From IMG/VR virus record IMGVR_UViG_3300045738_000476, positions 1 to 34,543 of that record: DNA of 34,543 bases. The stretch is one strand, 5' to 3'. The position numbers were made by a program, and so were the translations under genes. Of the stretch, positions 22,568 through 34,543 are shown piece by piece (position 1 is the stretch's first letter; each line of letters starts with the position of its first letter). The notes below the pieces were generated by a model. The model saw nothing but the letters and a program-made list of their open reading frames with translations, had not been told where the DNA came from and did not search any database. The stretch is from a virus.

Positions 22568-22972
22568 ATGACCGATCTATTCCAACCCCTCCCCCTGGTC
22601 GATCCCGAGTACACCCGCAAACAGAACGATATCGAAATGATCGAGGGAATCCCCTTCAAGTCTCCCCGCCATGAGGAGGAGAACGATCACAACAACCCGG
22701 ACGGGAAAGATCTCAGAGTAGAGACAGCCCGATGGATCAAGAAGCATCCCGAGGTTGCCCGTCTCTTCCTCCGGTATGCAAACGCCCTCGCCCGAAAGGA
22801 AAGACCCTTCGGGATGAAGCTGGTCGCGGAGCGGGTTAGATGGGAGACGTACTTCGAGAAGGGCGAATCCTACAAGATTTCCAATAACCATACCGCCTAT
22901 ATCGCCAGGTGGATCATCGCCAAGGATCCTACCATCGAAGCGTTCTTGAGGTTTCGGAATGTCAAGTATTGA
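22568..22972 (+). CDS. Phage protein of unknown function, helical
   Basis: A 134-residue protein starting at ATG 22568. The C-terminal half has a run of conserved-looking helices (WIKKHPEVARLF..YANALARK..KLVAERVRWE..KISNNHTAYIARWI), a pattern I associate with small phage proteins in replication modules. It is basic and might bind DNA. Its 3' end overlaps the methyltransferase start by 14 bases, and its stop codon overlaps the ATG of the alternative frame inside that gene (TGATG). Function unassigned. Confidence 0.6.
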   Translation: MTDLFQPLPLVDPEYTRKQNDIEMIEGIPFKSPRHEEENDHNNPDGKDLRVETARWIKKHPEVARLFLRYANALARKERPFGMKLVAERVRWETYFEKGESYKISNNHTAYIARWIIAKDPTIEAFLRFRNVKY

Positions 22973-23912
22973 TGATATTCGGGTCTTGGATCTGTTCTCT
23001 GGAATTGGAGGATTCAGTTATGGACTCAAACAAACGGGAGGGTTCCGCACCGTTGCCTACTGTGAAATCGAAGAGTACCCGAGGGAAATACTCCTCCATC
23101 GGATGGAAGAAGGGCAACTGGATCCTGCCCCCATCCATACCGACATTACCCGATTGGATGGAAGACCGCTCCGGGGACACGTTGACCTCATCTGCGGAGG
23201 ATTCCCCTGCCAGGATCTCAGCGTTGCCGGGAAACAAGCAGGAATCGACGGAGAGCGTTCCGGTCTTTGGGGAGAATACGCCCGACTCATTCGCGAGATT
23301 CGACCCCGATACATCCTCGTGGAGAACGTCCCAAACCTCCTTGTTCTCGGGATGGATCGAGTACTCAGAGACCTGGCCGCAAGCGGGTACGATGCGGAAT
23401 GGAGTTGTATTTCAGCGGCAGAGATGGGTGCCCCCCATCGAAGAGATCGCGTCTGGATCATCGGGGAACTGGCCGACTCCGACTATTGCCGGGAACTACA
23501 ACCGGAAGGGAGCAAGCCCAAACAGCGGGGACGGTTTGGAAACAGCAGTGAAAAAGGACAACTGGCCGATTCCGAGAGCAATCGAGTACAAGAATCCAGG
23601 GATGTCAATCGAGAGGAGACAGAAGGGGATGGCCCCCGAACACCTTTCGGAGGCAGTAAGAATGTGGCCGACTCCGACGAGCAGGGACCACAAGGATACG
23701 GGGGACTCGATAATGAACGGGACTGTCCCTGTCAATGGGCTACTTGGTCGTGCTGTCGCGCCCACGAAGATGAAAGGCTCACTCGATCCCGCATTCGTAG
23801 AATATCTAATGGGATACCCCATCGGGTGGACCGTCTTAAAGCCCTTGGAAATTCGATAGTGCCGTCCATAGCGGAATTCCTTGGCCATCGGATCTTGGAG
23901 TCTTCCCGATGA
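22959..23912 (+). CDS. DNA C5-cytosine methyltransferase
   Basis: A 317-residue enzyme that transfers a methyl group from S-adenosylmethionine to C5 of cytosine in DNA. Motifs appear in order: I (DLFSGIGG, 11-18), IV with catalytic Cys84 in GGFPCQD, VI (ENV, 122-124), VIII (PHRRDRVW, 159-166), a target-recognition region with repeated ADSD/ADSE units (about 171-285), and X (ALGNSIVPS near 297). The sequence is complete and should be active. It could protect phage DNA from restriction or, with downstream enzymes, provide 5-methylcytosine for further modification. Its coding region also carries a long open frame in another reading frame. Confidence 0.92.
   Translation: MSSIDDIRVLDLFSGIGGFSYGLKQTGGFRTVAYCEIEEYPREILLHRMEEGQLDPAPIHTDITRLDGRPLRGHVDLICGGFPCQDLSVAGKQAGIDGERSGLWGEYARLIREIRPRYILVENVPNLLVLGMDRVLRDLAASGYDAEWSCISAAEMGAPHRRDRVWIIGELADSDYCRELQPEGSKPKQRGRFGNSSEKGQLADSESNRVQESRDVNREETEGDGPRTPFGGSKNVADSDEQGPQGYGGLDNERDCPCQWATWSCCRAHEDERLTRSRIRRISNGIPHRVDRLKALGNSIVPSIAEFLGHRILESSR
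22972..23859 (+). CDS. Possible overprinted protein inside the methyltransferase gene
   Basis: A 295-codon open frame, +1 relative to the methyltransferase, starting at ATG 22972 on the stop of the upstream gene. It contains FDPDTSSWRTSQ, ETWPQAGTMRNG, repeated WPTPT units and a final EYLMGYPIGWT. I recognise these motifs from proteins repeatedly predicted in phages. They correspond codon by codon to conserved methyltransferase blocks (ADSD gives WPTPT; SNGIPHRVD gives LMGYPIGW). It may therefore be a genuine overlapping gene, or a shadow kept open by conservation of the methyltransferase. No other shadow of this length occurs on the + strand here. Confidence 0.35.
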   Translation: MIFGSWICSLELEDSVMDSNKREGSAPLPTVKSKSTRGKYSSIGWKKGNWILPPSIPTLPDWMEDRSGDTLTSSAEDSPARISALPGNKQESTESVPVFGENTPDSFARFDPDTSSWRTSQTSLFSGWIEYSETWPQAGTMRNGVVFQRQRWVPPIEEIASGSSGNWPTPTIAGNYNRKGASPNSGDGLETAVKKDNWPIPRAIEYKNPGMSIERRQKGMAPEHLSEAVRMWPTPTSRDHKDTGDSIMNGTVPVNGLLGRAVAPTKMKGSLDPAFVEYLMGYPIGWTVLKPLEIR

Positions 23913-25757: not shown

Positions 25758-25988
25758 ATGAAGAGATCGGAACAGAAAGATTTGTTGATGCGTTACCGAA
25801 AAACGATGACTAAAAACAAAATCCCCGAAATTGTTCAGAAGGCAAATATCAAGAACATGGAACATTGGTTATCTTCCGGGAAAAAGAACCAGGAGGACTA
25901 CGCTCTTTCGGTAATTGATTCTTCGGAGCAGAATTTCACACGGAAGAAGGAACGGAAGAAAGCTACCTACAACCGGAAGACTTGGTGA
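25758..25988 (+). CDS. Small basic protein upstream of the DpdA-like gene
   Basis: A 76-residue Lys/Arg-rich protein starting at ATG 25758 after AGGGGAGGGG. It is helical and strongly basic at the C-terminus (RKKERKKATYNRKTW), which suggests nucleic-acid contact. Its stop overlaps the next start (TGATG), so it is translationally coupled to the transglycosylase gene and may be part of the same system. I do not recognise it. Confidence 0.5.
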   Translation: MKRSEQKDLLMRYRKTMTKNKIPEIVQKANIKNMEHWLSSGKKNQEDYALSVIDSSEQNFTRKKERKKATYNRKTW

Positions 25989-26662
25989 TGGACGTTTACC
26001 TTGCGTCCCCCCGGAGTCAAGTGCAAGCCGATAAGGTCAAGGGTATGCCAGTACTTATGAGCTTCGGATGCTATTCAAATTGGATGGATCGCTATGTCCC
26101 CAGTTATGAAAAACTCCTGATCGACTCAGGAGCCTATTCAGTTCTCAATTCAGGAACACAGATAGATATAGGTGAGTTCAGCGAATGGTCAGAAAGGTTT
26201 GAACCTGTAGCGGAAGCAGTCGCAGGACTGGATGACATTTCCGGTAACTGGAAACAAGGATTGAAAAATTACGAAGCTGTTCCCTGGTCGTTCCCCACAT
26301 GGCATGACACAGATCCCATTGAACTTATACCTGATCTTGTAGCTCTTGCGTGTGAACGGAAAACATGGATCGCAATCGGGTTGGATCCTCCCCGATATGG
26401 GAAGGAAAGAATCGTTCGGGATTTCCTCGAACAGATACCAGATGACCTCCACGTTCATGGTTGGGCTTTACGAGCCTACACCCACCTCCCCGGTATAGAT
26501 TCCGTTGATTCCACAAACTGGTTCAGGGATTCAATAGGACTGGCAAAGGAATTCCCTTGGTTGACCCCTGCGGAATGTCTCGAAATTGTGGTGAAGCGAT
26601 ACAAAAGACAACCAACAATCGAAGCAATCCAACCAAAGAGGGAGGGGGATTTTTGGGGATAA
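25988..26662 (+). CDS. dpdA: DpdA-like 7-deazaguanine DNA transglycosylase (TGT fold)
   Basis: A 224-residue protein of the tRNA-guanine transglycosylase superfamily in its short phage form. IDSGAYS (Asp46) resembles the substrate-recognition Asp of the family, GLDD follows at 80-83, and HVHGWALRAYTHL..IDSVDSTNW at 155-178 contains Asp174, the likely nucleophile. The zinc site of tRNA enzymes is absent. DpdA enzymes exchange guanine in DNA for a 7-deazaguanine base, protecting phage DNA from restriction. QueD, a pathway enzyme, lies two genes downstream, which supports the call. ATG 25988 is chosen because it overlaps the upstream stop; TTG 25982 and GTG 25985 are alternatives. A tRNA-directed enzyme is less likely. 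Confidence 0.65.
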   Translation: MDVYLASPRSQVQADKVKGMPVLMSFGCYSNWMDRYVPSYEKLLIDSGAYSVLNSGTQIDIGEFSEWSERFEPVAEAVAGLDDISGNWKQGLKNYEAVPWSFPTWHDTDPIELIPDLVALACERKTWIAIGLDPPRYGKERIVRDFLEQIPDDLHVHGWALRAYTHLPGIDSVDSTNWFRDSIGLAKEFPWLTPAECLEIVVKRYKRQPTIEAIQPKREGDFWG

Positions 26663-27132
26663 CGAACAATCAAAGATACTCCCTGATCGAAGCGATTCAT
26701 GGATATGCAGATAATTTGATGGATGACGCGGGGGGGCTTGAACTTTCGCGGAACGATTTCCCCGAATACGAAACTTGGAGACACTTCCGCGATGAAGGGA
26801 TCATTCTGTTTCCTGCGGCGTTGGAGATGGGGCGCATGGTGATGTTGAAATCTATAGAGTCATCTGCCGAGTGCAATCCTCCAGGTTCCTATACCGAACA
26901 AATTAGCGAAGAGTTTTTTGATGAGATGGGTATTGATACTGAGATAGAACCTTGGAATATCATGGATGTGTCTCCTGCTGATTTGCTCCCTATAGTCATC
27001 AAAATGAAACTACTCCAAAGAGATGCTTTCTGTTGTGATCTTTGTAAAGCACTTATCAAAGAAGACGCCTCCTGGTCAATCATTGATGGGAAACGTCAAC
27101 ATATCATCAAGTCCGATTGCAAGGCAAAATGA
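26653..27132 (+). CDS. Unknown protein between dpdA and queD
   Basis: A 159-residue acidic protein. TTG 26653 is the best start: GGAGG lies seven bases upstream and it overlaps the dpdA stop. The N-terminal part is helical with many Asp/Glu; the last 40 residues hold Cys residues (CCDLC, then a terminal C) that may bind metal. It overlaps queD by four bases. Placement inside a dpdA-queD operon suggests a role in base modification or in controlling it. Base composition is visibly richer in A/T than the structural genes. I recognise no family. Confidence 0.55.
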   Translation: MGITNNQRYSLIEAIHGYADNLMDDAGGLELSRNDFPEYETWRHFRDEGIILFPAALEMGRMVMLKSIESSAECNPPGSYTEQISEEFFDEMGIDTEIEPWNIMDVSPADLLPIVIKMKLLQRDAFCCDLCKALIKEDASWSIIDGKRQHIIKSDCKAK

Positions 27133-27599
27133 AATTGAAAGAGGAGTGTCCTGATTGTGGTTATGACAGGTTGTACGGACCCGTGTCGGATTATTGGGGA
27201 CAATCATGCCCTGATTGTGGATGGGAGGGGAAGGAGATGATACGAAACACAGGCAGGATCCGAGCCGTGGCAAAATGCACCCTGGTGGCCGGTCACTTTC
27301 TGCGTCCTCCATACAAAGGGAAATGCTCCCGGCCCCACGGTCACAACTTCGAGATCGAGGCGGTATTCGAGACAGACAAACCGGATGCTCGGGGATTTGC
27401 AGGAGTAGACTTTGACGATTTCAAAAATGCCTTGATGAAATACGATCACCAGATGCTCAACGATATCCCACCCTTCGACCAGATCCAACCCTCTGCGGAG
27501 AACATCGCCATCGTCCTTGGAAGGTTGTATCCCTCTTGCGTCCGAGTCAGAGTAGCAGAAACGGCAAACGGATATGCTGAATGGGTGACAATGTGCTAG
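27129..27599 (+). CDS. queD: QueD-type 6-carboxytetrahydropterin synthase with N-terminal zinc ribbon
   Basis: A 156-residue protein. Residues 37-156 form a complete QueD: His56 in AGHFL, catalytic Cys66 and zinc ligands His70 and His72 in GKCSRPHGHNF, DFDDFKN, Asp106-His107 in DHQMLN, and SAENIAIV. QueD makes 6-carboxytetrahydropterin, the precursor of CDG and preQ0, which DpdA can insert in DNA. Residues 7-30 add an unusual four-cysteine ribbon (CPDC..CPDC). A strong SD before ATG 27237 would also allow a 120-residue QueD without the ribbon, the normal family length. FolE, QueE and QueC are not seen and would have to come from the host. Confidence 0.8.
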   Translation: MKLKEECPDCGYDRLYGPVSDYWGQSCPDCGWEGKEMIRNTGRIRAVAKCTLVAGHFLRPPYKGKCSRPHGHNFEIEAVFETDKPDARGFAGVDFDDFKNALMKYDHQMLNDIPPFDQIQPSAENIAIVLGRLYPSCVRVRVAETANGYAEWVTMC

Positions 27600-27724: not shown

Positions 27725-27931
27725 ATGAGAGAAACAATCACCGGGGGGATATGCCACAGGTGCAAAACCAGGGGGAAACCTGTAGGATTGTGCCTGACTG
27801 AGCGGGGACGGGGGTATCAGTCCTGGGATCTGATCCGTCCCCATTGTGTTGCTTGTTGTTCGTCTTCCAAGAACTGGAGAGAACTCGGAAAGACGAACGG
27901 GGGGGAAAATGGGAAGCAGATCAAACGGTAG
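27725..27931 (+). CDS. Small zinc-ribbon protein
   Basis: A 68-residue basic protein starting at ATG 27725 with a weak SD (AAAGG). Cys9 and Cys12 (CHRC) and a later HCVACC cluster form a probable zinc site, a layout found in small phage HNH-less zinc-ribbon proteins. It is the first gene after the strong terminator and overlaps the next gene by 23 bases. Function unknown. Confidence 0.5.
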   Translation: MRETITGGICHRCKTRGKPVGLCLTERGRGYQSWDLIRPHCVACCSSSKNWRELGKTNGGENGKQIKR

Positions 27932-28403
27932 TAAAAACGGGGTTTCACTTCTTCATGCCATCGAGTCATCATTCTCCGCAATCCCGAAGACGATCCGCAA
28001 GTCTTACGAACGGGAGGAACTCGTCTCTTCAACTTGGCTGATCCTCAAGAGCCGGGGAGCGAAACGCCCGACGAAGGTTCAGATCAAGTTCGCGGCTATC
28101 GACTTCCATCGGACGAATACCCACTATCGAGCGAAGAAGCACGGTCAGCGGCATGGGGACTTGTTTACCAATCATCCTTCGGTGGATCCCGTGAGTAGCA
28201 ATGAGGTCGTCCCCGACAAGACCAGGGACCATTCCGAAGTGGTTGAACACTTCCACGACCTACGGAGGAGATTCGGGACGGATGGGTTCCTGATCTTCCT
28301 CCTCTCCCGCGTATTGGAGTTCTCCCGTCGAGACATCAACCAGATCATGGACTTTGAACCAGACTCAGCCTTGAGTCGATCTTTCGGAGAAATGGGGAAA
28401 TGA
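27909..28403 (+). CDS. Possible sigma-factor-like / helix-turn-helix regulator
   Basis: A 164-residue basic protein starting at ATG 27909 behind a G-rich SD. The segment RKSYEREELVSSTWLILKSRG resembles helices of small phage sigma-like proteins, and the C-terminal region (DGFLIFLLSRVLEFSRRDINQIMDF) could form a DNA-binding helix-turn-helix. If so it could direct late transcription, perhaps through the TTTGACGACTAA boxes; that link is pure inference. A packaging-associated DNA-binding role is an alternative. It overlaps the ParB-like gene by four bases. Confidence 0.45.
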   Translation: MGSRSNGSKNGVSLLHAIESSFSAIPKTIRKSYEREELVSSTWLILKSRGAKRPTKVQIKFAAIDFHRTNTHYRAKKHGQRHGDLFTNHPSVDPVSSNEVVPDKTRDHSEVVEHFHDLRRRFGTDGFLIFLLSRVLEFSRRDINQIMDFEPDSALSRSFGEMGK

Positions 28404-29035
28404 ACCTTCAGACGCTTACCCTCTCGACGCTCAAACCCGCACCCTACAATCCCCGGAAGATCTCCGACGATGCGATGGGCCGCTTGGAGAAGTCAGTCAA
28501 GGAATGGGGGATAGTTGACCCCCTAATCGTGAACAAGGCAACCGGCTACACCATCATCGGGGGCCATCAGCGGTTCAAGGTTCTCCAGAAACAGGGAGCG
28601 CAGACCGCCGATTGTGTCGTCCTCGATCTCCCGCCGGCTAAAGAGAAAGCCCTCAATATCGCCTTGAACAATCAGAAGATGGCGGGAGAGTATGAGTTCT
28701 CCACCCTGGCCGATATCCTTCAAGAGATCGATACCGGAGAGTTCAGCGTTCCAGACCTGACGGGATTCTCCGAGGAGGATCTGGAATCAATCGCAACGTG
28801 GGCTACGTCTCCAGATCATACACCAGATGATCCGAATACCGAATGGGAGGGGATGCCAGAATTCAAGAATGAGGAAGTTGAGAAAGCATATAAAAGCCTT
28901 ATCGTTCATTTCCAGACTGAAGAATCATTCGATGAGTTTGCAAAGAAAACTGACCAGACCATAACGAGCGAGACGAAGTTTATATGGTTGCCATACAAGC
29001 CGAAGAAGAATCTGAAAGCATTTTCGTGTGAATAA
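28400..29035 (+). CDS. ParB/sulfiredoxin-fold protein linked to DNA modification
   Basis: A 211-residue protein. Residues 1-95 form a ParB-like N-domain: the opening LKPAPYNPRKI, a PLIVNK..YTIIGGHQRFKVLQ box with GGHQR, and an ALNIALNNQK segment. This fold is common in phage DNA-modification operons, where it is thought to guide enzymes to DNA or act as a nuclease. The C-terminal 70 residues (WEGMPEF, then IVHFQTEESFDEFAKKTDQ, then TKFIWLP) recur in such modification-linked proteins. It directly precedes the glycosyltransferase gene with an 8-base overlap, which strongly suggests they act together. Confidence 0.72.
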   Translation: MNLQTLTLSTLKPAPYNPRKISDDAMGRLEKSVKEWGIVDPLIVNKATGYTIIGGHQRFKVLQKQGAQTADCVVLDLPPAKEKALNIALNNQKMAGEYEFSTLADILQEIDTGEFSVPDLTGFSEEDLESIATWATSPDHTPDDPNTEWEGMPEFKNEEVEKAYKSLIVHFQTEESFDEFAKKTDQTITSETKFIWLPYKPKKNLKAFSCE

Positions 29036-29873
29036 TGAATACCCTGTTTTCGTACCAACAAAGGGGCGATATGAAACGCTTCACACGATTAAGGCTTTCG
29101 AGTCTATCGGGGTCCGATATAAAGCGGTAATCGAGAAGCAAGAATATACGCAATACGCAGAAGCAATCGGGAAAGATAATTTGATCGTGGTCCCGCATCA
29201 GAATAAGGGACTCACAACGACACGAAACTGGATATGGGACTATGCCGAGAATGAACTGAAGACCCCCTACTTTTGGACATTCGATGATAACATCATAGAA
29301 TTTTATCGTCTCCATCAAAACATCAAGTATCGAATAGCGTCCCCGACATTCCTGAAGGTGATGGAAGACTTCGCCACTAGGTATGAAAACCTGATCGTAT
29401 CAGGGATGCAGTACGAGATGTTCGTTCCCAGAAAGAGGAAGCACAAGCCCTATACATTAAACACACGGGTCTATTCCAATATGTTAATAAAAGCAGATTC
29501 GGGATATCGGAACGAATTGTTCTATAACGACGATACGGATTTGTGCTTGCGAATCTTAAAGGACGGGAATTGTACCCTTCAATTTTATGCGTTCCTCGCT
29601 AACAAAATTGCAACGATGACAGTCAAGGGGGGAATGACTGACTATTATAAGAAAACAAAGCAGGGCGATGGTCGCCTTTTAATGGCTCAAGCCCTTATGG
29701 AAAAACATCCAGATGTAACCCAGATCGTTAGGAAGTGGGGACGGTGGCAACATAAAGTGGATTATTCTAAATTTAGAAATAATAAACTAAGGAAAAAGCC
29801 GAAGGTCGCAATACCAATCGGAATAGACAATTACGGGATGAATCTGAAACGATCTAAAGTTGGAATCGATTAG
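29028..29873 (+). CDS. Glycosyltransferase of the TET-associated (TAGT) type
   Basis: A 281-residue enzyme starting at GTG 29028. The N-terminal VFVPTKGRYETLHTI is the nucleotide-sugar fold start, a DD motif lies at Asp86-Asp87 (WTFDDNI), and NDDTDLCLR (168-175) and VKGGMTDYY (199-207) match late motifs of the TAGT family, described from phages that glycosylate hydroxymethyl-pyrimidines in DNA. Usually a TET/JBP dioxygenase makes the hydroxyl group; none is visible here. The sequence is more A/T-rich than the adjacent packaging genes, consistent with acquisition as cargo. Substrate base and sugar cannot be read from sequence. Confidence 0.72.
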   Translation: MNNEYPVFVPTKGRYETLHTIKAFESIGVRYKAVIEKQEYTQYAEAIGKDNLIVVPHQNKGLTTTRNWIWDYAENELKTPYFWTFDDNIIEFYRLHQNIKYRIASPTFLKVMEDFATRYENLIVSGMQYEMFVPRKRKHKPYTLNTRVYSNMLIKADSGYRNELFYNDDTDLCLRILKDGNCTLQFYAFLANKIATMTVKGGMTDYYKKTKQGDGRLLMAQALMEKHPDVTQIVRKWGRWQHKVDYSKFRNNKLRKKPKVAIPIGIDNYGMNLKRSKVGID

Positions 29874-29875
29874 AT

Positions 29876-30424
29876 ATGAGCGTTGTCTCATATATCAAAG
29901 AGATCCAAGGCAAGAGGGTGAACTTCAAAGCGTTACCCCAAAAGCACAGGATCGCCATCGTGGGCTTCCTCAAGTCTGATGGATTGCTCGTCGAAGAGAT
30001 CGCCAATATGTGCGGGATCTCTGTCCCGATGGTCTACCACTACTGGAAGAAGTATCAGACAACGCTTGCGGATATGGTCAAGAGATCAGCGGGTCAGTTC
30101 ATAGGTCGGCTGATCGCAAAGGGGGAACACCTCTACAAGAGCGCGAAGAAGGCCGGGAAGCTGGAACTCTGCTGGAAGATTGAAACAGACCTTCTCGACC
30201 GCCTTATAAAACTGGGATGGATAGAGAGCAAGCCGCAACAGATCGAGTTGGTAGTTGGTAAAGGTGCGGAGTCTCCCGAGATATTAGAGGCGCAACTTGC
30301 AGATGATCTGTCCCTATTGGAAAGGTTAAGGCAACGTGCAGAAGGATCGAAAGAGAAAGACATCATCGACATCGAGCCAAGCGGAAACGGAAACGGAGCC
30401 CCTGGTAATGGTCGAACAGAGTGA
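29876..30424 (+). CDS. terS: Terminase small subunit
   Basis: A 182-residue protein with an N-terminal helix-turn-helix (LLVEEIANMCGISVPMVYHYWKKY), which recognises the packaging site, followed by helices for oligomerisation and a C-terminal Gly/Asn-rich tail. It lies immediately before the large subunit, whose start overlaps it by 17 bases. Size and layout are normal for TerS. The start at ATG 29876 has only a weak SD, so expression may depend on the preceding gene. Confidence 0.78.
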   Translation: MSVVSYIKEIQGKRVNFKALPQKHRIAIVGFLKSDGLLVEEIANMCGISVPMVYHYWKKYQTTLADMVKRSAGQFIGRLIAKGEHLYKSAKKAGKLELCWKIETDLLDRLIKLGWIESKPQQIELVVGKGAESPEILEAQLADDLSLLERLRQRAEGSKEKDIIDIEPSGNGNGAPGNGRTE

Positions 30425-31982
30425 GTACGCGAAAGTCGTAGAGTCTGCCTTCGTCAAGTCGAGGGCGATGATCTACCAGAACGCTCCGAACGACTTCGCC
30501 TGTTTCTGTCGTGCCGTTATCAAAGACGAGGAGACGAGGGAACACATCAGCCTTGCTCCTCATCAACTCGAATGGCTCGATCATATCGACAGGTGCAGAG
30601 CCGAGGGGAAGTTTGCGGGAATCCTCGCTCCTCCTGGTTCGGGCAAGTCTCAACTCTTCTCGATAGCCTTTCCCCTTTGGAGTGTCGGGTCTGCTCCCCG
30701 TTTGCGTTGTGCCGTTGTCGGTAGTGATTCAAAGCTGGTCAAGCGAAGAGTCCGACCGGCGAAGGAGTACGTTCAATACGATCCAGACTATCGCGCCATC
30801 TTCCCGAACGCTCTCCCTGAGAAACCGGAGAAGTGGACGGAGCAGGAGTTCTCGATTCAAAGGCCGAGAGGAATCAAGGATCCGTCATACCTCGGAGCGG
30901 GTATAACGCAACCGCCGCAAGGATCCCGCATCGACCTCTTGGTGAACGATGACATCTGCGATTACGACAACACGATCAGCGAACCCGCCATGCGGGACAA
31001 GGTGATTGACCTCTGGTATAACGGCTTCGATACACGCCTCGGACCTAGCGGTTTCGTCGTTCATATCGGCGGTATCATCCATGCTCGGGATCTGAACGTC
31101 AGGCTGACGAACGATCCACGTTTCTGGTTTATCAAGCAATCAATCTCGAACGACTTTCAAAGCCTGATCCATGAGGACATGAGAACGGGAGAGACGAAGA
31201 CGCTCGAACTCTGGTCAAGGGCATGGACTCCCGAGTTCCTCGAACAGAAGAAGCGGAGTAACCCCAGATCCTATAAACGTGCGTACCAGCACGTTGGATA
31301 CGACGATAGTGAGAGGACATTCTCAGAGACTTCCATCAAGGCGTCAATCCGCAAGCCGCCCTCCTCGATCCCTTCCGGGGTTGCGTACTTCATCGGCGTT
31401 GATCTCGCGGGGAAGAACCGGGCGGGGAACGTCATCGCAACCATCGCGGTCGGAGACAAGAGAACCGTGGTCAATATCGAGCGCGGTGCCTGGAGTAGTG
31501 ACGAGACGGCGCGGAGGATCATCGCGGCATATGACCGATACCATCCGTCCGTAATCATGGTCGAGAACAACGCATACCAACAAGCGATTATCGACTGGAT
31601 CGGGATTGTATCTGAAAGACCGCTACCCATCGAGCCGTTCACTACAGGCAGGCAGAAGGCCGACGAGGTTCTCGGGCTTCCTGGCATGAGTGCGGAATTC
31701 CTAAACGGGATGTGGGAGATCCCATTCGACGAGGATCACATCGTCGCTATGGGTTGCGACTGCGGTCAATGCGCTTTAGTATCTGAACTCCTCGATCATC
31801 CCTTCGGCAGTTCTGACGCGGTGATGGCGGTATGGTTTGCCAGATGCGGAGCCATGAAATACGGAAGCAGATTCGAGCCTGAGTTCGTACAGGCGAAGGG
31901 GATAGGGCGGTCGGCTGGTGCTGGAGGGAAGAGGGACCGGAGTCGGTTGAACTCGTTCCGTAATTCCCGAAAGGGTATTTGA
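30408..31982 (+). CDS. terL: Terminase large subunit
   Basis: A 524-residue packaging motor. Walker A is APPGSGKS (74-81), Walker B is IDLLVNDD (175-182). The C-terminal nuclease has the RNase-H-like triad Asp332 (VDLAGK), Glu386 (MVENNAY) and Asp470 (GSSDAVMAVW). It uses ATP to drive DNA into the prohead and cuts genome units. ATG 30408 is favoured because of GGAG upstream and overlap with terS; GTG 30336 would add 24 residues of low-complexity sequence. The TTTGACGACTAA box overlaps its stop codon. Confidence 0.92.
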   Translation: MVEQSEYAKVVESAFVKSRAMIYQNAPNDFACFCRAVIKDEETREHISLAPHQLEWLDHIDRCRAEGKFAGILAPPGSGKSQLFSIAFPLWSVGSAPRLRCAVVGSDSKLVKRRVRPAKEYVQYDPDYRAIFPNALPEKPEKWTEQEFSIQRPRGIKDPSYLGAGITQPPQGSRIDLLVNDDICDYDNTISEPAMRDKVIDLWYNGFDTRLGPSGFVVHIGGIIHARDLNVRLTNDPRFWFIKQSISNDFQSLIHEDMRTGETKTLELWSRAWTPEFLEQKKRSNPRSYKRAYQHVGYDDSERTFSETSIKASIRKPPSSIPSGVAYFIGVDLAGKNRAGNVIATIAVGDKRTVVNIERGAWSSDETARRIIAAYDRYHPSVIMVENNAYQQAIIDWIGIVSERPLPIEPFTTGRQKADEVLGLPGMSAEFLNGMWEIPFDEDHIVAMGCDCGQCALVSELLDHPFGSSDAVMAVWFARCGAMKYGSRFEPEFVQAKGIGRSAGAGGKRDRSRLNSFRNSRKGI

Positions 31983-33482: not shown

Positions 33483-34392
33483 GCTGATCGAACAGGGGAA
33501 GATCAACCGGAAGCAGTTCGAGAAGCGGGTCGGTCGATGGAGCGCGAAGGTGGACAAGCTGGAAGTCCAGGCCGCATCCGAGGTGAAGGGTCTTCTCGGC
33601 GATCTCGATAAGGACATCCGTTCAGAGATCACCAGCTTTGCAGACAACGATTCACTAGACCGATCCGATATCAACAAGGCTATCGACAATGCCGTTGACA
33701 AGTTCGAGGCGAAGAGAAAGGTGGTCATGCGGAAGACGAGGCAGAAGGCTGTCGATGTATCGCATGAGTTCAGGCAAGACGTAACGGGAATGACGAAGGA
33801 CCAGGCTACCTCTTCTCCGATGGGCGGCAAGGGATCGAAGAAGATGGTCCGAGACTTGAGCAAGATGCAGGACGAGGCGAACAAGGGGTTCGGCAAGTTC
33901 CTTCGGAAGAAGATCAAGTCCGAGATTGCGGACGGAGTTCTGAAAGGGAAGACTCCGAACGAGATCGCAAAGGATATGGTCGCGAAAAGGATAGTCACTC
34001 CGACTCGGAAGAAGGGAGATGTCAGCGCGAGGAACGCACTTGCAAAGGCTGAGAAGTTCGCCCGTGCTGATGTGCGGCAGACCTTCAACGCGGCGAACCA
34101 GGTGTCGTCGGCTGGTCAGAAGGTGAAGGGGAAGAAGAAGATTTGGATTGCGAAGATGGACGGGATCGAAAGGGCCGCTCATCGAGTCGCTCATATCGAG
34201 TATGGGATTGGGGGGAAACCGGGACCGATCCCGGTAAGACGGAACTTCAAGGTCGGAGGGGAGCGGCTTATGTTTCCCGGTGATCCGAAGGGGAAGCCCC
34301 ACAACATCATCAACTGCCGATGCGTATCGGTAGAGATCACGCCCGAAGCTGATGCGATGATCTCGAAGAGAGGCGGGAAGAGAAAGAAGTGA
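33448..34392 (+). CDS. Minor head protein, Mu F / SPP1 gp7-like
   Basis: The complete 314-residue version of the gene cut at the window start. The N-terminal half is a long Lys/Asp-rich helical region; residues 190-310 carry the Mu F-like domain (RADVRQTFNAA, RVAHIEYG, then PGDPKGKPHNIINCRC). These proteins enter the prohead with the portal and aid assembly or DNA ejection. ATG 33448 has AAGGGGCG as SD; ATG 33418 upstream is inside the portal and less likely. Confidence 0.85.
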   Translation: MEMELLTVPLYRLIEQGKINRKQFEKRVGRWSAKVDKLEVQAASEVKGLLGDLDKDIRSEITSFADNDSLDRSDINKAIDNAVDKFEAKRKVVMRKTRQKAVDVSHEFRQDVTGMTKDQATSSPMGGKGSKKMVRDLSKMQDEANKGFGKFLRKKIKSEIADGVLKGKTPNEIAKDMVAKRIVTPTRKKGDVSARNALAKAEKFARADVRQTFNAANQVSSAGQKVKGKKKIWIAKMDGIERAAHRVAHIEYGIGGKPGPIPVRRNFKVGGERLMFPGDPKGKPHNIINCRCVSVEITPEADAMISKRGGKRKK

Positions 34393-34543
34393 GCAGAAGG
34401 AGCCAAGATCGTGGATCACTCAACTTGCAGTATGATAATAACAGGGATGGCAACCGCCATAATGGGAATGAGTGGCGCACTCGTTCGGATCTTCCTATTC
34501 TACAAAGCGGAGAGCGAGGGCCGTCTGAAGGATGCCAAGGAAC
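33949..34543. repeat. Right copy of imperfect terminal direct repeat
   Basis: It matches 1-595 without indels at about 93% identity. It ends within the small membrane protein gene at exactly the base where the left copy continues. See the left copy for interpretation. Confidence 0.9.
34411..34543 (+). CDS. Small single-span membrane protein (5' part, truncated by window end)
   Basis: The first 44 codons of the gene present in full at 463-624, starting at GTG 34411 with AGAAGGAG upstream. All five differences from the other copy are third-position silent changes, so both copies encode the same residues. The open frame runs off the window end. Confidence 0.7.
   Translation, partial: MDHSTCSMIITGMATAIMGMSGALVRIFLFYKAESEGRLKDAKE

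Follow-up and report, generated by a model that had tools for sequence, protein, structure and literature searches.

A TET-free branch of the phage TAGT glycosyltransferases and its CT partner domain, here the tail of a ParB-like protein

The TAGT family of glycosyltransferases is named after TET and its members are usually explained by TET. TAGTs without TET are already known from phages T2 and T6 (PMC13216743, PMC13390438), where the enzyme (ggt, the beta-glucosyl-HMC alpha-glucosyltransferase) has an established DNA substrate, a 5hmC-derived base, and adjoins a dCMP hydroxymethylase (PMC13216743). A 'solitary TAGT', without an alpha- or beta-GT, has moreover been reported in 288 of 753 phages (PMC13216743). 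The glycosyltransferase of phage Aeh1 is listed with an 'unknown base' in PMC8056088, which cites Iyer 2013 for it, and both Aeh1 and Aeromonas phage 65 are without genes 42 and 56 (PMC2993671). ParB_N proteins have likewise been noted near phage cytosine-modifying enzymes, their function being given as unknown (PMC12783734). The preliminary description of the locus treated here had associated TAGTs with phages that first oxidise 5-methylcytosine with TET; given T2, T6 and Aeh1 the link is not an exclusive one, whilst the second half of the statement, that the present genome is TET-free, holds.

The window, meaning the whole 34.5 kb stretch of DNA that was analysed, is a virus record whose two ends (1-595 and 33949-34543) share an overlap of about 596 bp (94% identity), most of which falls in a Mu-F-like head gene. 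This suggests that the genome is circularly permuted and that two strains went into its assembly. On account of the overlap the genome is probably near complete, which makes the absence of TET from it meaningful. A megablast comparison of the right part of the window with phage records gave no match. The relevant features are:

22959-23912, plus strand: C5-cytosine DNA methyltransferase (PF00145, E=1e-44)
25982-26662, plus strand: DpdA/TGT-like gene (PHROG 887, E=2e-13)
27117-27599, plus strand: QueD (PF01242, E=1e-20)
28400-28837, plus strand: ParB_N domain and linker, residues 1-146 of the ParB-like protein (PF02195, E=1e-11)
28838-29035, plus strand: CT domain, residues ~147-211 of the ParB-like protein (from conservation; without a Pfam match)
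29028-29873, plus strand: TAGT-family GT-A glycosyltransferase of the CT-linked clade (PF20691, E=5e-36)
29876-31982, plus strand: terminase small-subunit-like and large-subunit genes (PHROG 38 terminase, E=1e-52)

Two further genes, at 26557-27132 and 27846-28403, have no family match; the latter extends 4 nt into the start of the ParB gene.

The glycosyltransferase, a protein of 281 amino acids, matches the whole of the PF20691 TAGT profile (1-205 of 205) and also PHROG 842 (E=1e-37), which carries the name T-even beta-glucosyl-HMC alpha-glucosyltransferase. Its AlphaFold model (mean pLDDT 92) has a GT-A fold, and the Foldseek matches of the model are GT-A enzymes, for example WrtF fucosyltransferase, collagen galactosyltransferase and GnT-I; PDB sequence searches with the protein or with its 56-sequence profile gave no meaningful solved relative. 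The motifs DDN and NDDTD lie at residues 86-88 and 167-171, and within these D86, D87, N88 and D169 are invariant in 109 TAGT sequences of the CT-linked clade, the third DxD position being Asn. Histidines 227 and 242 are nearly invariant in this clade and missing from the TET-linked TAGT set. The protein is thus an intact GT-A enzyme. The preliminary description had placed it beside a ParB-like partner, and the profile matches listed above bear out both genes and their positions.

The partner gene (28400-29035) encodes 211 amino acids and overlaps the glycosyltransferase gene by 8 nt. That its N-terminal part is a ParB_N domain is indicated by the Pfam match and by an AlphaFold model that matches ParB and Noc structures. 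Among phage proteins, this domain is closest to the N-domain found in ParB-adenine methyltransferase fusions (41-43% identity over ~140 amino acids). Such fusions thus also place a homologous ParB_N beside a DNA-modifying enzyme, although there the partner is a methyltransferase and the match to the window protein ends before CT. Splitting the protein into its domains shows that strong conservation resides, rather than in ParB_N, in the last ~64 residues, the CT domain, with the motif EW.GMPEF...VHF....DV..FA.L..Q..T.KTKSIWYP. No Pfam model recognises CT, which has a weak match to PHROG 22103, a family of unknown function. The domain occurs as the tail of a ParB_N protein, as a small separate protein and as a fusion to the TAGT N-terminus. 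In Pelagibacter phage HTVC112P (contig L209, 3375-5597) a ParB_N protein without CT immediately precedes TET and an FkbM methyltransferase, which suggests that ParB_N can partner TET and that CT is the partner of TAGT.

The TAGT branch to which the enzyme belongs comprises at least 537 stretches confirmed by tblastn, the best 80 loci of which were examined. Upstream sequence of 500 bp or more was available for 95 TAGT loci, and in 88 of these a ParB/CT protein is adjacent or fused to the TAGT, usually with overlapping genes. A search with CT alone gave 75 further loci, and all 75 have a TAGT (65 directly next to CT and 10 within 3 kb); this co-occurrence is strong but not fully independent, since the CT-seeded set partly shares contigs with the TAGT search and the CT alignment was built from TAGT-linked examples. 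Fusions, of CT to TAGT and of ParB to CT to TAGT, were found repeatedly; of the ten TAGT proteins examined in nine cultured phages of the clade, every one is fused to CT. The TAGT and the C-terminal CT domain of the ParB protein constitute the real unit. The distances of the two partners correlate weakly (Mantel rho 0.13, p=0.06), too weakly for co-divergence to be retained as support for docking, and the docking claim consequently depends upon co-occurrence and fusion. Vibrio phage Kuja (contig L173, 2084-4772) and contig L043 (8683-10819) each carry two CT-TAGT fusion genes in tandem, an arrangement that might allow two sugars to be added one after the other.

Base composition divides the ParB gene at the same place. 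In the window the GC content of ParB_N (residues 1-90) is 0.57, against 0.40 for CT and 0.42 for TAGT, with a recovery just past the stop codon of TAGT. Of 1676 sliding 1-kb windows across the genome, only 4 are as low in GC as CT plus TAGT, and all of these overlap it, so that the pair occupies about the most GC-poor kilobase in the genome, with its boundary lying within the ParB gene. Across 53 loci the corresponding values are 0.53 for ParB_N and 0.44 for CT plus TAGT, without a difference between CT and TAGT; at third codon positions they are 0.62 and 0.47, with the drop seen in 46 of the 53 loci (p=6e-9). Given this break, CT and TAGT form what looks like a single cassette, attached to a local ParB_N.

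A comparison of 26 phage records (the window and 25 records of 27 kb or more) showed that, beyond ParB/CT and TAGT, the large terminase is the sole other gene that is widely common to them, and a TerL cluster is present in 54 of 101 TAGT loci, mostly 2-3 genes downstream. That the module so often adjoins the terminase would suit an enzyme that glycosylates a protein or glycan, such as a virion protein, the terminase or CT itself, with the ParB domain being incidental. The nearest solved folds, which are protein and glycan glycosyltransferases, and the frequent occurrence of CT as a small separate protein directly upstream point in the same direction. Yet CT contains no invariant Ser, Thr, Asn or Cys that could serve as an acceptor, frequently forms one protein with the enzyme, and sits in the window behind a ParB_N of the DNA-methyltransferase type, and the precedent within the family is DNA. 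A protein or glycan substrate is hence considered unlikely.

If the substrate is DNA, the source of the acceptor has to be considered. Six-frame family searches of the record and Pfam protein scans found no recognisable TET/JBP, no other 2OG oxygenase and no thymidylate-synthase-type hydroxymethylase in the window, although a very divergent hydroxylase might escape such searches; gp26 of Nonlabens phage P12024L, the positive control of the TET search, was recovered at E=3e-29. The report of a missing TET was in this way upheld, as was its corollary that any acceptor must come from elsewhere, there being no recognisable TET in the window to make it. The window TAGT is accompanied in its own phage neither by TET/JBP, as in the TET-linked glycosylation pathway, nor by dCMP hydroxymethylase, as in the T-even glycosylation of HMC. 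Among 50 TAGT-branch records (the window and 49 relatives), many of which are fragments, TET (PF12851) and the thymidylate-synthase family (PF00303) are both found in none, and TET is absent from all ten cultured phages of the branch. Eight of those ten have a thymidylate-synthase-family gene, and in the cases that were resolved, Aeh1, phiAS5, henriette and PTm1, it has the thymidylate-synthase Asn where the hydroxymethylase T6 gp42 has Asp.

The clade structure separates the window enzyme from its TET-linked counterparts. The P12024L TAGT, gp27, shares the Pfam family and ~25% identity with it, but adjoins TET gp26 and a methyltransferase, has neither CT nor ParB and belongs to a separate clade. 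The TET-linked TAGTs form a supported clade of their own with DDD, in contrast to DDN in 109 of 109 CT-clade sequences. The T6 enzyme likewise resembles that of the window in its PF20691 match, TET-free phage and reported GT-A fold (PMC13216743), but differs in its position beside dCMP hydroxymethylase, its lack of CT and its DDD; it is very divergent (PF20691, E=1e-8) and is missed by a profile of the CT-linked clade. The Aeh1 and phage 65 glycosyltransferases belong to the same clade and carry CT, with the difference that CT is fused to the enzyme and ParB_N is lacking. The window TAGT is accordingly a member of a distinct TET-free branch with its own partner domain and not part of a TET pathway that lacks one gene.

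An ordinary hydroxymethylpyrimidine glycosyltransferase, whose 5-hydroxymethylpyrimidine comes from the host or from a divergent hydroxylase of the phage, would be in keeping with the action of the T2/T6 TAGT on a 5hmC-derived base (PMC13216743) and with the C5 methyltransferase in the window. This explanation is regarded as rather improbable, since TET and hydroxymethylase are missing from the 50 records, fragmentary as many of these are, no third gene apart from the terminase is common to the 26 phages, and the TET-linked TAGTs are set apart by clade and DxD motif. Moreover, a C5 methyltransferase occurs in only 3 of 50 TAGT-bearing records. The methyltransferase gene of the preliminary description is real, but on this co-occurrence it is probably not part of a glycosylation system, and it was rejected as a pathway partner. 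Its motifs are ordinary (PCQ, ENV and GNS). A CmoX-type enzyme, as in the formation of carboxymethylcytosine, is marked by an SPPC motif in the C5 methyltransferase (PMC12783734); the window protein has GFPCQ and GNS instead, which rules this type out. The gene (317 amino acids) lies over a second long open frame of 316 amino acids in another frame (22909-23912).

It had also been proposed that the transferase may decorate the 7-deazaguanine made nearby, and the DpdA-like and QueD genes do lie less than 4 kb upstream. A TGT-like gene is, however, present in only 1 of 58 records of the TAGT branch and QueD in only 2 of 58, which leaves the proposal unsupported; a 7-deazaguanine acceptor was rejected as very improbable, and the genes at 25982-27599 are probably separate from the TAGT unit. 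DpdA/TGT-like and QueD genes without a recognised QueC, QueE or FolE represent a reduced 7-deazaguanine set, which would need a host-made precursor.

A probability of roughly 0.55 is given to the reading that the pair at 28400-29873 is a CT-partnered DNA glycosyltransferase, tethered by its ParB domain and using a TET-independent acceptor. It draws upon the near-constant pairing of CT and TAGT, their fusions and matched GC content, the absence of TET and PF00303 from the 50 records, the methyltransferase-type ParB_N and the DNA precedent of T2/T6 (PMC13216743). For the CT-linked TAGTs that precedent would hold by analogy, given how far the T6 enzyme has diverged from them. The enzyme would consist of two parts, a catalytic GT-A TAGT and a small CT partner carried on a ParB_N protein. 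CT would dock on TAGT, and ParB_N may tether the complex to the phage DNA, as it may in the phage ParB-methyltransferase fusions. The TAGT would then take a sugar from a nucleotide-sugar of the host and attach it to a base in the phage genome, and the added sugar may protect this genome from host nucleases. The acceptor would derive neither from TET, nor from a thymidylate-synthase-type hydroxymethylase, nor from the 7-deazaguanine pathway, and may be one of the canonical bases, or one that different phages prepare with different enzymes. It is possible, if doubtful, that the CT-linked TAGTs glycosylate an unmodified DNA base directly in one step, with CT providing acceptor recognition. The dCMP of T4 relatives without gene 42 is believed to be for the most part unmodified (PMC2993671), so dense glycosylation fits poorly.

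TET-less TAGTs were known beforehand; the CT partner, its near-obligate pairing with TAGT and the DDN clade appear to be new here, and no description of these three was found in the literature covered, Iyer et al. 2013 and Pyle et al. 2024 lying outside its scope. A large TAGT branch in which, where tested, neither TET nor hydroxymethylase is recognisable thus seems to have a partner domain of its own, and the 'solitary TAGT' category gains a concrete two-part hypothesis, for which Aeh1, 65, phiAS5 and Vibrio phages 1.076 and 1.124 are available in culture. Should the substrate be DNA, a new acceptor chemistry is to be expected, and if the direct one-step reaction is true, DNA would be glycosylated without prior hydroxylation across many unrelated phages.
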